Below the pieces are notes generated by a model that did not search any database, had not been told where the DNA came from, and saw only the letters and a list, made by a program, of their open reading frames with translations. Positions 57,361 to 60,066 of a stretch of DNA of 64,000 bases are shown here, piece by piece. The stretch is taken from contig NZ_FNPK01000001.1 of NCBI RefSeq assembly GCF_900107285.1, positions 124,001-188,000 on the forward strand. Direction: 5' to 3'. The translations under genes and the position numbers were made by a program. Source of the DNA: Acinetobacter kyonggiensis. GTDB lineage: Bacteria; Pseudomonadota; Gammaproteobacteria; Pseudomonadales; Moraxellaceae. Within the stretch, counting starts at the first letter, position 1. Every line of letters starts with the position of its first letter.

Positions 57361-59658
57361 ATGTCGAATATGCAGCTGGACACCTTAAGACGTATTGTAC
57401 AAGAAATCAATGCGTCCACCAGTTTGCATGAATCACTCGACATTATGGTCAACCAAGTGGCCGAAGCCATGCATGTCGATGTTTGCTCCATTTACCTACT
57501 CGATGAACGTAATCAACGCTATTTACTGATGGCTTCTAAAGGTTTAAACCCTGAAGCTGTCGGACACGTTTCACTGCATACGGGTGAAGGCTTAGTCGGG
57601 TTGGTGGGACAGCGTGAAGAAATTGTCAATTTAGACAATGCGCCTAAACATGAACGCTTTTTATATCTGCCTGAAACGGGTGAGGAGATTTATAACTCTT
57701 TTCTCGGTGTTCCCGTCATGTATCGCCGTAAGGTGATGGGTGTTTTAGTTGTTCAAAATAAAGAACCGCATGACTTTAGTGAAGCAGCCGAATCTTTTCT
57801 CGTGACCTTATGCGCACAGCTTTCGGGTGTAATTGCACATGCACATGCCGTCGGCAATATTGATGTGTTCCGTAAACCCAACAGCCTACCTGCGTATAAA
57901 ACCTTCCAAGGGATTTCAGGTTCTGGCGGGATTGCTTTAGGTCGTGCTGTCATTTTATATCCACCTGCCGATTTAGCCTCAGTTCCTGACCGTGAAGCCG
58001 ATGACATTAGTGAAGAGCTTGAGCTGCTCGATCATGCTATTGATTCCGTGCGTCAAGAAATTCAATCGCTTGATGACAAAATGCAAGATGCCTTAATGGC
58101 AGAAGAACGTGCATTGTTTAGTGTGTTCTTACGCATGCTTGATGCAAATGCGCTACCTGCTGAAATTAAAGCTGAAATTCGCGACGGCAATTGGGCACAA
58201 GGTGCTGTTCGTATTGTGATTGACACCCATATTGCGCTATTTGCACAAATGGAAGATGACTATTTGCGTGAACGTGTCTCAGATCTGAAAGATTTGGGTC
58301 GTCGTATTTTAGCGTTCTTACAAGAAGCGGATGCCAGTCACCGCGAACTGACCGATGAAAGTATTTTGATTGGTGAGGAAATTTCAACTGCCGCTTTGGT
58401 TGAATTACCTGTCGATAAAATTGCCGCGATTGTCACCACTGAAGGTGCCATGAATTCACATATGGTGATTGTGGCACGTGCACTCGGTATTCCAACCGTG
58501 GTCGGTGTAACGGAGCTACCCATCAATACGCTTGATGATGTCGAGATGATTGTCGATGCACATCAAGGCCGGATCTTTATTAATCCACCACGTCGCTTGC
58601 GTACCCGCTATAAAGAAATTCAAAAAGAAGAAGAACAAATTGCAAAAGATTTAAAGCAATATGAAACCAAGGATTCCATTACCCCCGATGGCGTTACCGT
58701 CAAATTATACGTCAATACGGGTCTGATGATTGATGTGGTACGTGGCGTACAACGAGGGGCTAAAGGCGTCGGTTTATATCGCTCTGAAATTCCCTTTATG
58801 CTGCGTGATCGTTTTCCTGGTGAAGAAGAACAACGCGCCATTTATCGTCAACAGCTCAGCCACTTTGCCAATAAACCTGTGGTAATGCGTACCCTTGATA
58901 TTGGTGCAGATAAAGATCTGCCCTATTTTTCGATTGAAGAAGATAATTCCGCTTTAGGCTGGCGTGGGATTCGATTTACACTGGATCATCCTGAAATTTT
59001 CTCATCGCAAATTCGTGCCATGCTCAAAGCCAGTATTGGCTTAAATAACTTGCATATCTTATTGCCGATGGTCACCAGTGTCAGCGAAGTTGAAGAAGCC
59101 TTGTATTTGCTTGAGCGTGATTGGATGGCGGTTCAAGAAGAAGAACAAGTCAAAATCACCAAACCGAAAATAGGGATTATGGTCGAAGTCCCGAGTGTAT
59201 TATTACAAATTGAAGAATTTTCTGAATTGGTTGATTTTTTCTCGGTTGGTTCGAATGACTTAACCCAATATTTGCTGGCAGTTGACCGTAACAATCCTCG
59301 TGTCGCCAATGTGTATTCACACTTTCACCCAGCGGTGCTGCGTGCTTTAACCCGTTTGGTCAAAGAATGTCATAAGTACGATAAACCCATCAGTATTTGT
59401 GGTGAAATGGCAGGAGATCCTTTGGCTGCAATCTTATTGATGGCAATGGGATTTAATACCCTTTCAATGAGTTCCAGTAATATTTTACGGGTACGAAAAG
59501 CGATTTGCCATGTCCCGATGACAGATGCACTGGTTCAACTCGAACATGTATTAAAAATGGATAACCCATTAATCGTGAAAAGTTGGATGGAATATTATTT
59601 TAAGACGCATGGTTTGGGTGATATGGTGAAATCTGCAACACGTATTGTAAGTGCTTAA
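57361..59658 (+). CDS. ptsP: phosphoenolpyruvate-protein phosphotransferase PtsP (EI-Ntr)
   Basis: First enzyme of the nitrogen PTS, passing phosphate from phosphoenolpyruvate to NPr. A GAF domain (about residues 1-165; LYLLDERNQRYLLMASKGL-like) precedes the EI domains. Active His367 lies in GAMNSHMVIVARALG. The PEP-binding barrel ends with SICGEMAGDPLAA. The 765-residue length is normal. It follows rppH by 88 bases and ends in a strong bidirectional terminator. Confidence 0.95.
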   Translation: MSNMQLDTLRRIVQEINASTSLHESLDIMVNQVAEAMHVDVCSIYLLDERNQRYLLMASKGLNPEAVGHVSLHTGEGLVGLVGQREEIVNLDNAPKHERFLYLPETGEEIYNSFLGVPVMYRRKVMGVLVVQNKEPHDFSEAAESFLVTLCAQLSGVIAHAHAVGNIDVFRKPNSLPAYKTFQGISGSGGIALGRAVILYPPADLASVPDREADDISEELELLDHAIDSVRQEIQSLDDKMQDALMAEERALFSVFLRMLDANALPAEIKAEIRDGNWAQGAVRIVIDTHIALFAQMEDDYLRERVSDLKDLGRRILAFLQEADASHRELTDESILIGEEISTAALVELPVDKIAAIVTTEGAMNSHMVIVARALGIPTVVGVTELPINTLDDVEMIVDAHQGRIFINPPRRLRTRYKEIQKEEEQIAKDLKQYETKDSITPDGVTVKLYVNTGLMIDVVRGVQRGAKGVGLYRSEIPFMLRDRFPGEEEQRAIYRQQLSHFANKPVVMRTLDIGADKDLPYFSIEEDNSALGWRGIRFTLDHPEIFSSQIRAMLKASIGLNNLHILLPMVTSVSEVEEALYLLERDWMAVQEEEQVKITKPKIGIMVEVPSVLLQIEEFSELVDFFSVGSNDLTQYLLAVDRNNPRVANVYSHFHPAVLRALTRLVKECHKYDKPISICGEMAGDPLAAILLMAMGFNTLSMSSSNILRVRKAICHVPMTDALVQLEHVLKMDNPLIVKSWMEYYFKTHGLGDMVKSATRIVSA

Positions 59659-59855
59659 GCCACGTTAAATCCAAAAACAGCACAGAAAGAAAAAGGGAGA
59701 TAATCATTCGAATATCTCCCTTTTTTGTGCTTGCTATAGCCACGTTTTGCATTTTTCTTTCGGTCTGTAAACACTTGGCTTTGATTGACTTCATGCATGT
59801 GTTTTGCTACAAAGTTGTGAATCACAATTTCTAGCTTTTTCTTTTGTTTCGCCAT
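59655..59855 (-). CDS. small basic protein; arfA-like non-stop mRNA candidate
   Basis: A 66-residue frame (DUF7230-like). Residues 1-45 are very basic (FVAKHMHEVNQSQVFTDRKK, then NAKRGYSKHKKG). An AGGTGA ribosome binding site is present. The terminator stem-loop at 59691-59726 lies inside the frame at codons 44-55, with no stop before it. A transcript ending there would therefore be non-stop and encode a protein of about 56 residues. The codons beyond add a hydrophobic tail (FSFCAVFGFNVA) and stop on the ptsP stop codon. Escherichia coli arfA (ribosome rescue without tmRNA) has this arrangement, and residues VFTDR..KK..RGY.KHKKG resemble ArfA's LF..R...KKGKGSY.RKG stretch. The ArfA reading is inference. 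Confidence 0.6.
   Translation of the reverse strand: MAKQKKKLEIVIHNFVAKHMHEVNQSQVFTDRKKNAKRGYSKHKKGRYSNDYLPFSFCAVFGFNVA
59691..59726. terminator. bidirectional terminator of ptsP and of the small basic-protein gene
   Basis: A 12-bp stem (AAAAGGGAGATA/TATCTCCCTTTT) with a 10-base loop. T-tracts follow on the plus strand (six T) and on the minus strand (five T, then CTTTC). It is 32 bases after the ptsP stop and lies inside codons 44-55 of the minus-strand small gene. Confidence 0.9.
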
Positions 59856-59887
59856 TTCATTCACCTATTTGGCTAAGATATTCTGGT

Positions 59888-59914
59888 ACTTTGCCACATG
59901 AGATGTGGCAAAGT
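59888..59914. promoter_or_regulatory. perfect hairpin in the leader of the small basic-protein gene
   Basis: A 12-bp perfect stem (ACTTTGCCACAT/ATGTGGCAAAGT) with a 3-base loop. It lies 33 bases upstream of the minus-strand ATG at 59855, between it and a predicted -10 (59948-59953). No T-tract follows, so it looks like a 5'-leader structure or an operator rather than a terminator. Confidence 0.5.
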
Positions 59915-59947
59915 GATGATACGCTTTATTGTACATTTTACAAGCAA

Positions 59948-59956
59948 ATTATACCA
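59948..59956 (-). promoter_or_regulatory. extended -10 promoter element
   Basis: On the minus strand TGGTATAAT is a perfect -10 (TATAAT) with the upstream TGn extension. No good -35 is visible. It would give the small basic-protein gene a leader of roughly 85 bases that includes the 59888-59914 hairpin. Confidence 0.5.
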
Positions 59957-60066
59957 ATGAATGGCTCGTTTTAAGCCTTTTCTTCATCTGTTTTGAATAG
60001 AAAAACACCCCGACTCCGCAAGAGAAAGACGCGATATATTTTACTCATTTAAAAAGCTCCAGAATT

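Follow-up and report, generated by a model that had tools for sequence, protein, structure and literature searches.

Introduction

ArfA and BrfA are proven cases of a gene design in which the mRNA ends without a stop codon, and both are described as release-factor-dependent (PMC6881298, PMC3989581; here and below, statements from the literature reflect excerpts of the cited sources). The hairpin in arfA is an RNase III site and/or a terminator (PMC3989581), and the ArfA tail carries the motif KGKGS (PMC6299226). BrfA (YqkK) of Bacillus subtilis has a Rho-independent terminator inside its ORF, and its product of ~62 residues is under trans-translation control and carries a Lys-His motif (PMC6881298); the Lys-His pair common to BrfA and ArfA contacts U534 of the 16S rRNA (PMC6881298), and 6SZS is given as the BrfA structure entry (PMC8012679). 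ArfT of Francisella is described as having neither a terminator nor an RNase III site, a KKGGSTNKK tail, and the use of RF1 or RF2 (PMC6299226). More factors of the release-factor-dependent kind may exist, and sequence similarity could be a poor guide to them (PMC8012679, PMC6881298). Trans-translation has been discussed as an antimicrobial target (PMC8778911), and rescue backups therefore matter.

Here, we analyzed a small minus-strand gene in a 64,000-nucleotide stretch of Acinetobacter kyonggiensis DNA (the window, to which all coordinates refer). Our literature search found no publication mentioning DUF7230, the family to which its product belongs, nor a DUF7230-type rescue factor in Acinetobacter.

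Results

The Gene and Its Product

The ORF (59655-59855, minus strand) starts with ATG at 59855, runs for 66 sense codons, and ends with a TAA (59655-59657) that overlaps the ptsP stop on the opposite strand. Its product matched the profile PF23876 (DUF7230) with 59.8 bits compared with a gathering score of 27, and homologues were found in 104 of 175 congeneric genomes, while 71 lacked the gene. Some records leave the homologues unannotated. The promoter TTGTAA-16-TATCAT (59916-59943, minus strand; TTGTAA at 59943-59938 and TATCAT at 59921-59916) fits the pattern CTTGaAat...gcgtA.tAT conserved among 102 distinct upstream regions, and the Shine-Dalgarno AGGTG (59862-59866, minus strand) falls on the aAaaggT conserved in the upstream alignment. 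Together with the Pfam match, these elements bear out the original prediction of an independent gene. The extended -10 that had been assigned to it (59948-59956) does occur in the sequence; it was dropped because conservation across species points to the promoter at 59943-59916 instead. A 5' stem-loop, formed by a 12-bp inverted repeat with a 3-nt loop (59888-59914, minus strand), lies at the predicted transcription start; its pairing, judged by eye, appears to be kept with differing sequences in other species.

The mature product is predicted to be a basic protein of ~56-57 residues, the later codons being translated only on read-through. Its signature is N-x-V-A-K-H ... F-x-D-[RK]-K ... K-H. 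Phe29, a candidate for the RF2-pocket residue of the ArfA-like mode, lies within the F-x-DRKK pattern and was present in 104/104 congeneric homologues and in 9 of 10 in a separate set, at a differing spacing. The Lys-His motif at codons 42-43 (59727-59732, minus strand), directly 5' of the hairpin described below, was invariant in all 86 distinct congeneric sequences and was found in 10/10 of the separate set and, by reading, in 19 of 20 homologues from named genomes. The read-through-only codons (59658-59687, minus strand) encode a tail that is hydrophobic, as had been predicted, and degron-like in the family: past codon 55, 76% of the residues in the 104 homologues were hydrophobic, and 31 of the 104 ended in AA versus 2 of 275 control ORFs, a count that ignores species relatedness. 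An AlphaFold monomer model (pLDDT 56, pTM 0.22, a single helix at residues 15-39) was uninformative. A sequence search of the PDB yielded no solved structure related to the protein; BrfA, presumed to be among these sequences, gave no match up to E 10.

The In-Frame Hairpin

Codons 44-56 (59690-59725, minus strand) form an intrinsic-terminator-like hairpin, and the frame runs into it without a stop, as originally claimed. The U-tract TTTTTCTTTC (59685-59694, minus strand) would mark the mRNA 3' end, judging by the terminator position, upstream of the stop codon; the U-tract of the hairpin core reads TTTTTCTTT, with one C interrupting it. The region 59675-59740 folded at -27.0 kcal/mol compared with a shuffle mean of -10.2 (z -7.4), and when codons 43-57 were synonymously recoded, none of 2000 variants reached the observed stability. 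None of 200 shuffles was as stable either. The hairpin is more than a chance structure. The built-in terminator scan found nothing at this hairpin, probably because its loop exceeds the limit of 8. Rfam returned only two matches, sraA-like and mir-15-like, both below the gathering score and taken as chance. The contig C42 (384,848 bases) contained 100 terminator-like sites. Against its 846 ORFs of 50 aa or more, a set that includes spurious frames, these gave 8 site-in-ORF overlaps; the DUF7230 hairpin accounted for two of them, and three lay in ORFs longer than 100 aa.

In all 104 congeneric homologues, the hairpin lies inside the frame and the stop codon comes after it, at codons 59-105 when counted from Lys-His as 42-43. 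The eight core pairs were formed in 86/86 distinct sequences, two-sided changes included. The pair 47.0/53.3, for instance, was formed in every one of them with 39 two-sided changes, and whether residue 53 is Leu or Arg goes with the form of codon 47: AGA/GGA47 always occurred with Leu53 CTC (39/39) and CGA47 with Arg53 CGN (47/47), while GGT46 always occurred with CGA/CGG53 (9/9). These compensatory changes at the codon level indicate that the hairpin is under selection as RNA. The stem pair 45.0/55.3 was formed in only 57 of the 86. The pairing analysis covered 95 homologues, of which 86 are distinct; the remaining 9 of the 104 were parsed by a less strict pattern. Two additional fragments (L106, L107) were unparsed and left out of the counts. 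For one homologue (L063), the script reported a different hairpin (codons 52-68); its codons 45-55 are identical to those of L064. The anatomy of an in-frame hairpin and a late stop is established, and the mRNA end follows from it as a prediction.

Homologues Beyond the Genus

In other Gammaproteobacteria, mostly Methylococcales, the stop lay beyond (15) or inside (5) a strong hairpin in 20/20 homologues. These hairpins (-23 to -49 kcal/mol) were each below all 100 dinucleotide shuffles, including L136, whose region was re-placed after misanchoring at the first KH (0/100). Three of the 20 are query sequences picked after their hairpins had been seen; L132, L147, and L151 are the same proteins as the queries L116, L118, and L119. 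The shuffle test responds to whatever structure lies within 110 nt downstream of KH and also flags the normal-stop copies L124 (1/100, then 12/100 on the re-anchored region) and L237 (0/100), in which the structures begin at or beyond the stop.

The stop position expected of orthologues held throughout the genus but not in all of 12 distant homologues found by profile search, 6 of which have an ordinary stop (L120, L121, L124, L125, L126, and L152; the L126 match is below the Pfam cut-off). Five of these six are without Lys-His. An ordinary stop is likewise present in several copies from phages, plasmids, and viral contigs and in one C-terminal fusion (L236). Of 11 viral-contig copies, with hairpins of -12 to -21, one has its stop beyond the best hairpin, seven have it inside, and three have it before.

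We read 9 of 29 phage matches and 2 of 4 plasmid matches. The phage proteins (phrog_1359) belong to the same family by profile, and 8 of the 9 have a Lys-His tail. In the jumbo phages Munch, fENko-Kae01, BF, CBB, and XbC2, a hairpin directly follows KHKG; these hairpins are weaker, being clearly below the shuffles only in CBB and BF. A non-stop outcome is uncertain for Munch, fENko-Kae01, and BF, since their stop codon comes directly after the hairpin. The phages Aeh1, LPCS28, Ci1, and Bestia have no such hairpin.

Other Rescue Systems in These Genomes

The A. kyonggiensis genome contains a tmRNA with the tag ANDESYALAA. ArfA (PF03889) was detected in 0/175 congeneric genomes, with no match over the cut-off in the genome of A. 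kyonggiensis itself, and ArfB (NF006718) likewise in 0/175. A weak ArfA-like match in two genomes (G066, G068) was dropped, as it was a short ORF overlapping the 3' end of another gene and a terminator-like repeat. The 71 genomes without the DUF7230 gene are also without detectable ArfA and ArfB, which suggests either that not every species needs a backup or that another one exists. In class samples of 303 genomes each, PF23876 occurred in 11 and PF03889 in 5 with no genome in common, numbers too sparse to interpret; ArfB was found in 2 of 12 DUF7230 genomes, both with a normal-stop copy, too few to conclude from.

Discussion

Could the DUF7230 gene encode a backup ribosome-rescue factor, made from a non-stop mRNA and probably recruiting a release factor? 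We put the probability of this reading at roughly three in four, because the stop follows the hairpin in every congeneric homologue, the hairpin appears to be selected as RNA, and the arrangement recurs in all 20 homologues from other Gammaproteobacteria. It is further favored because the Lys-His motif is shared, tmRNA is present, ArfA and ArfB are each undetected in the 175 genomes, and BrfA and ArfA provide precedents. The 71 genomes without the gene and the six distant homologues with an ordinary stop count against it, as do the normal-stop copies of phages, plasmids, and viral contigs, the unconvincing similarity to ArfA, the lack of a sequence match to any solved structure, the uninformative monomer model, the incompletely kept stem pair 45.0/55.3, and the C that breaks the U-tract.

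By analogy with these precedents, expression only when tmRNA fails, combined with rescue activity, would work as follows. RNA polymerase would stop at the in-frame hairpin, leaving an mRNA that breaks off near codon 56 and lacks a stop codon, and a ribosome finishing this mRNA would itself become a non-stop ribosome. With working tmRNA-SmpB, the product would be SsrA-tagged and destroyed. The rare read-through product, whose tail is hydrophobic and, like the tmRNA tag, often ends in -AA, would probably meet the same fate. When trans-translation is overloaded, the ~56-residue basic protein would accumulate. Following the ArfA/BrfA pattern, its C-terminal tail with the Lys-His motif would enter the mRNA channel that stands empty in a stalled ribosome. 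To cut the peptidyl-tRNA, the protein would recruit a class-I release factor via the conserved Phe29 region, RF2 being the most likely one.

Two other explanations make less of the gene. That the ORF is spurious, with the terminator as the sole conserved element, might be argued from its shortness and patchy annotation; we rejected this reading as scarcely credible, as it is contradicted by a Pfam match far above the cut-off, protein-level conservation to codon 55 across 104 genomes, and a conserved promoter and Shine-Dalgarno. More serious is the alternative, raised for ptsP in the original prediction itself, that the 3' end of a plain small gene coincides by chance with a bidirectional terminator, be it that of ptsP or of some other convergent neighbor. 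The same hairpin DNA can indeed terminate ptsP on the plus strand, and ptsP is convergent in 78/78 homologue loci where it is present in the fetched flank. On the other hand, the hairpin is kept in 11/11 sampled loci in which ptsP lies further off. At 9 of the 11, a different convergent ORF (100 aa or longer) intervenes and may share the terminator, but the hairpin persists where the intervening ORF is co-directional (L254) and where there is none (L253). Furthermore, among 30 loci from species that lack the DUF7230 gene, 29 show a hairpin belonging to ptsP no more than 90 nt away, and ptsP therefore has no need of this gene. These loci, the codon-level compensation, the lack of any stop ahead of the hairpin in the genus, and the recurrence of stops beyond or inside hairpins in other orders led us to reject a chance overlap as very improbable.

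A third explanation accepts the non-stop mRNA and its control by tmRNA but assigns the protein a job other than peptide release, such as binding the ribosome channel during hibernation or to sense collisions, or reporting tmRNA capacity with another target. The normal-stop copies, the phage copies, and the L236 fusion, all of which use the domain outside the non-stop design, fit this explanation, as does the unconvincing homology to ArfA. We nevertheless consider it unlikely, as the known proteins of such a design, ArfA and BrfA, are described as release-factor-dependent rescue factors (PMC6881298, PMC3989581), their Lys-His tail is shared, and ArfA and ArfB were each detected in none of the 175 genomes.

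If the rescue-factor reading is right, DUF7230 would be a further alternative ribosome-rescue family built on the ArfA/BrfA design without a convincing sequence relation to ArfA. We also lean, with somewhat better than even confidence, toward a wider proposal: that DUF7230/phrog_1359 is a broad, unrecognised release-factor-recruiting family, independent of ArfA, BrfA, and ArfT, in Gammaproteobacteria and jumbo phages, which repeatedly acquired non-stop self-regulation via an intrinsic terminator or a long RNase III-type hairpin, uses an SsrA-like -AA degron on the read-through product as a second lock, and supplies the missing backup of many Acinetobacter and Methylococcales. In a genus in which neither ArfA nor ArfB was detected, the RNA design itself makes DUF7230 a strong candidate, and the pattern of a short basic ORF with a conserved hairpin in it could serve to search for more such factors, those of phages included.

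How does DUF7230 compare with the known factors? The loose kinship with ArfA that had been suggested was not upheld: a PF03889 profile search gave no match, and hhalign against ArfA gave probabilities of 6.7, 10.6, and 1.9% (2-11% over 7-15 columns; nominal P 0.005, 0.003, and 0.026) and a further 0.8%, with nominal P from 0.003 to 0.07 overall. We therefore rejected ArfA membership, also in view of the 0/175 count, and a very remote kinship may exist. The KGKGS motif is missing, the A. kyonggiensis protein having NAKRGYSKHKKG, and DUF7230 has its own signature instead. The 66 residues contain no GGQ, as an RF-like catalytic domain of the ArfB kind would have. ArfT, a rescue protein, resembles the DUF7230 product in being short and basic and is set apart by the described lack of a terminator or RNase III site, by its KKGGSTNKK tail, and by its use of RF1 or RF2. 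Non-stop arfA genes were reportedly first surveyed by Schaub et al. 2012. In our control scan of ArfA loci, the stop came after the hairpin in 13 and inside it in 7 of 20 parsed loci (3 of 23 were unparsed). Like DUF7230, ArfA is a small basic protein with a hairpin in its frame, ahead of or around the stop, and with a Phe upstream of the basic tail; its read-through tails, too, are hydrophobic or end in -AA, and it has a Tyr-x-Arg-Lys-x-Lys-His stretch in common with the Methylococcales members. BrfA belongs to a host of a different phylum, and its two-helix N-terminus is not seen in our (poor) DUF7230 model; it shares with DUF7230 the Lys-His motif, and its terminator, like the terminator-like hairpin of DUF7230, lies inside the ORF.

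Non-stop anatomy of the gene

Pfam assigned the encoded protein to DUF7230 (PF23876; 59.8 bits, cut-off 27), its sole Pfam match, and an NCBIfam search of the protein returned no match. The ORF, of 66 codons, runs on the minus strand from ATG 59855 to TAA 59657–59655, behind a Shine-Dalgarno sequence, AGGTG, at 59866–59862. A hairpin with a U-rich tail (59690–59725, minus strand) occupies codons 44–56, and the stretch 59675–59740 has a folding energy of −27 kcal/mol (z −7.4 relative to dinucleotide shuffles), which confirms the non-stop anatomy put forward in the original prediction. 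Termination in the U-tract would leave a stop-less mRNA of about 56 codons. The hairpin was missing from the list of a standard terminator scan of the window (loop limit 8), probably because its loop is longer than that limit. As background, the contig of 384,848 bases holds 100 terminator-like sites by our criteria, with eight site–ORF overlaps; two of these are the DUF7230 hairpin, and three fall within ORFs of >100 aa, one of them at codons 2–13. The stop codons of ptsP (plus strand) and the DUF7230 ORF (minus strand) overlap in the palindrome GCTTAAGC (59655–59658). A 24-kb region around the gene aligns with A. baumannii records at 79% identity across 38–44% of its length.

The predicted promoter (TTGTAA 59943/TATCAT 59916, minus strand) matches a motif, CTTGaAat...gcgtA.tAT, common to 102 distinct upstream regions. 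Directly after it, at the predicted transcription start, lies an inverted repeat with a perfect 12-bp stem and a 3-nt loop (59888–59914, minus strand); its sequence varies among species and, by eye, its pairing seems to be kept. This suggests a conserved 5′ stem-loop rather than an operator, and the stem-loop could possibly protect the mRNA.

Conservation and selection on the hairpin

The gene is present in 104 of 175 congeneric genomes, and we read all 104 homologues. The orthologue comparison upheld the predicted design throughout the genus: the frame is open across the hairpin at the same codons in 104/104, and the first stop comes only after the hairpin, between codons 59 and 105 (median 63; numbering from Lys-His = 42–43). 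In the genus alignment, protein conservation reaches codon 55 and is lost thereafter. One genome (G080) also carries a second, decayed copy (locus L106, contig C183, 75803–75952) with two internal TGA codons, slightly more than 1 kb from the intact one.

Base pairing was analyzed in 86 distinct sequences, drawn from 95 of the homologues. Eight core pairs of the stem are formed in all 86 and one in 85, with pair 45.0/55.3 formed in 57. Pair 47.0/53.3 is C-G (47 sequences), A-T (29) or G-T (10), and its composition accounts for the state of residue 53: AGA or GGA at codon 47 goes with Leu (CTC) in 39/39 and CGA with Arg (CGN) in 47/47. Likewise, GGT46 is paired with CGA/CGG53 in 9/9. Protein function can hardly account for a Leu/Arg swap that tracks a base 19 nt upstream; the pattern points to selection acting on the RNA hairpin. 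Such selection is also consistent with synonymous recoding, in which native stability was reached by 0 of 2000 recodings in the window, by 1–39 of 2000 in five other species and by 0–7 of 1000 at seven Methylococcales and other loci. At the level of sequence comparison, we regard the conserved non-stop anatomy and RNA-level selection as demonstrated.

Could the hairpin simply be the terminator of ptsP, overlapped by an ordinary gene? ptsP is indeed convergent and within the fetched flank in 78 of the 104 loci, its end lying a median of 120 nt and never more than 1527 nt away from the Phe motif. Eleven of the other 26 loci were fetched with wider flanks, and in all 11, ptsP was 0.6–2.1 kb off and the in-frame hairpin was retained. 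In nine of them a convergent ORF (≥100 aa) intervenes, and the terminator could serve it as well; at one of the other two (L254) the intervening ORF is co-directional, and at the second (L253) there is none. Furthermore, among 30 gene-less ptsP loci, the best-scoring among 71 genomes searched, the DUF7230 pattern occurred in 0/30 and a hairpin at least as stable as −9 kcal/mol lay ≤90 nt after ptsP in 29/30; therefore, ptsP terminates without the DUF7230 gene. A mere ptsP terminator is disfavoured.

Homologues outside the genus

Profile searches found the family in 11/303 genomes of the class and 3/398 of the phylum, the window's genome included each time. A scan of named genomes, using three query sequences in which hairpins had already been seen, gave 20 loci from Methylotuvimicrobium, Methylomicrobium, Methylobacter, Methylomonas and other Gammaproteobacteria. 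Across the 3′ end of the frame, each of the 20 forms a hairpin of −23 to −49 kcal/mol that is more stable than all 100 shuffles; the stop lies beyond this hairpin in 15 loci, within it in five and ahead of it in none. The same scan on 23 ArfA loci, as a positive control, placed the stop beyond a hairpin in 13 and within one in seven of the 20 loci that could be parsed. The end of one ArfA locus (L157), ...KKGRQSQDSAPFCWLF, is close to that of the window protein, ...KKGRYSNDYLPFSFCAVF, a likeness that probably arises because comparable hairpins constrain the codons in the same way. The long stems of the named-genome loci mostly have no U-tract, and they resemble RNase III substrates, by analogy with E. 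coli arfA, where the cited section maps an RNase III site (PMC3989581). Among 12 further genomes from the class and phylum searches, six share the design (L116, L118, L119, L122, L123, L153), with a terminator-type hairpin in L122 and L123 and a weaker one in L153, and six have a normal stop (L120, L121, L124, L125, L126, L152).

By profile comparison, DUF7230 corresponds to phrog_1359, and 29 phage records match the family, of which nine were read. In five of these, all jumbo phages (Munch, fENko-Kae01, BF, CBB, XbC2), a hairpin directly follows KHKG in stand-alone genes (L239 1171–1323; L241, L245, L246, L247); none was seen there in Aeh1, LPCS28, Ci1 and Bestia. The Munch record itself carries an annotated terminator within the CDS. 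The hairpin is immediately followed by the stop codon in Munch, fENko-Kae01 and BF, which makes a non-stop mRNA uncertain, and against shuffles CBB and BF alone stand out. A phage ArfA is described for pelagiphage HTVC027P (PMC12753301, section cited), so a phage rescue factor would have precedent, and the jumbo-phage proteins are possible candidates. On a viral contig (L236), a DUF7230 stretch ending KRGYSKHKNSTDYK forms the C-terminal end of a far larger predicted protein; the domain is therefore used beyond stand-alone factors. Two Vibrio megaplasmids of about 0.9 Mb (L237, L238) carry the gene with a normal stop, and three of four plasmid records list no gene under the DUF7230 match.

Relation to known rescue factors

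Membership in ArfA itself did not hold up by profile. PF03889 was not among the protein's Pfam matches, and in the profile search it exceeded the cut-off in the one control genome, E. coli, and in 0/175 genomes of the genus. An ArfA alignment made from 20 loci and the printed E. coli stretch gave 1.9–10.6% probability in profile–profile comparison (nominal P 0.003–0.026; three results), the two better ones aligning only a short Y-x-RK-x-KH stretch and the third being confined to the N-terminal MAKQKKK; with just the E. coli stretch, the probability was 0.8%. A very remote kinship may exist.

The genome has a tmRNA (191.8 bits), and a profile search found ArfB in 0/175 congeneric genomes (E. 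coli and Caulobacter controls positive). With ArfA also at 0/175, DUF7230 is therefore the only candidate backup seen, in 104/175. The other 71 have no DUF7230 over the cut-off and no detectable ArfA or ArfB; in them, tmRNA may be sufficient by itself, or else there is another factor.

The read-through-only part proved hydrophobic, as predicted: beyond codon 55, 76% of residues in the 104 homologues are hydrophobic and 8% polar or charged. An -AA end occurs in 31/104 (22/93 distinct) vs. 2/275 control ORFs, species kinship being ignored; T-rich DNA accounts for the tail's Phe and Leu, but hardly for this end. The tmRNA of this genome encodes the tag ANDESYALAA, and -AA ends, as in the SsrA tag, also occur on several ArfA tails. 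The -AA tail is possibly a built-in degron on the read-through product. Full-length E. coli ArfA is described as unstable owing to its hydrophobic end (PMC3989581, section cited), and by analogy the DUF7230 tail is likely a second lock.

In the cited sections (PMC6881298, PMC8012679), ArfA and BrfA are produced from non-stop mRNAs and repressed by trans-translation; both recruit RF2, and their basic tail, which contains a Lys-His pair, enters the mRNA channel. The Lys-His motif is present in 86/86 distinct genus sequences and 10/10 in a mixed alignment, and is missing from L122, L123, a further homologue (L150) and five of the six normal-stop copies. By analogy, an ArfA/BrfA-type mechanism is likely, in which the DUF7230 protein would be repressed by tmRNA, place its Lys-His tail in the mRNA channel and recruit RF2. 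As far as our searches show, a rescue function is new for this family. Phe29 could fill the role of ArfA Phe25 or BrfA Phe31, although the Phe-to-Lys-His spacing is shorter in DUF7230, at 13 residues compared with 19 in ArfA and 18 in BrfA.
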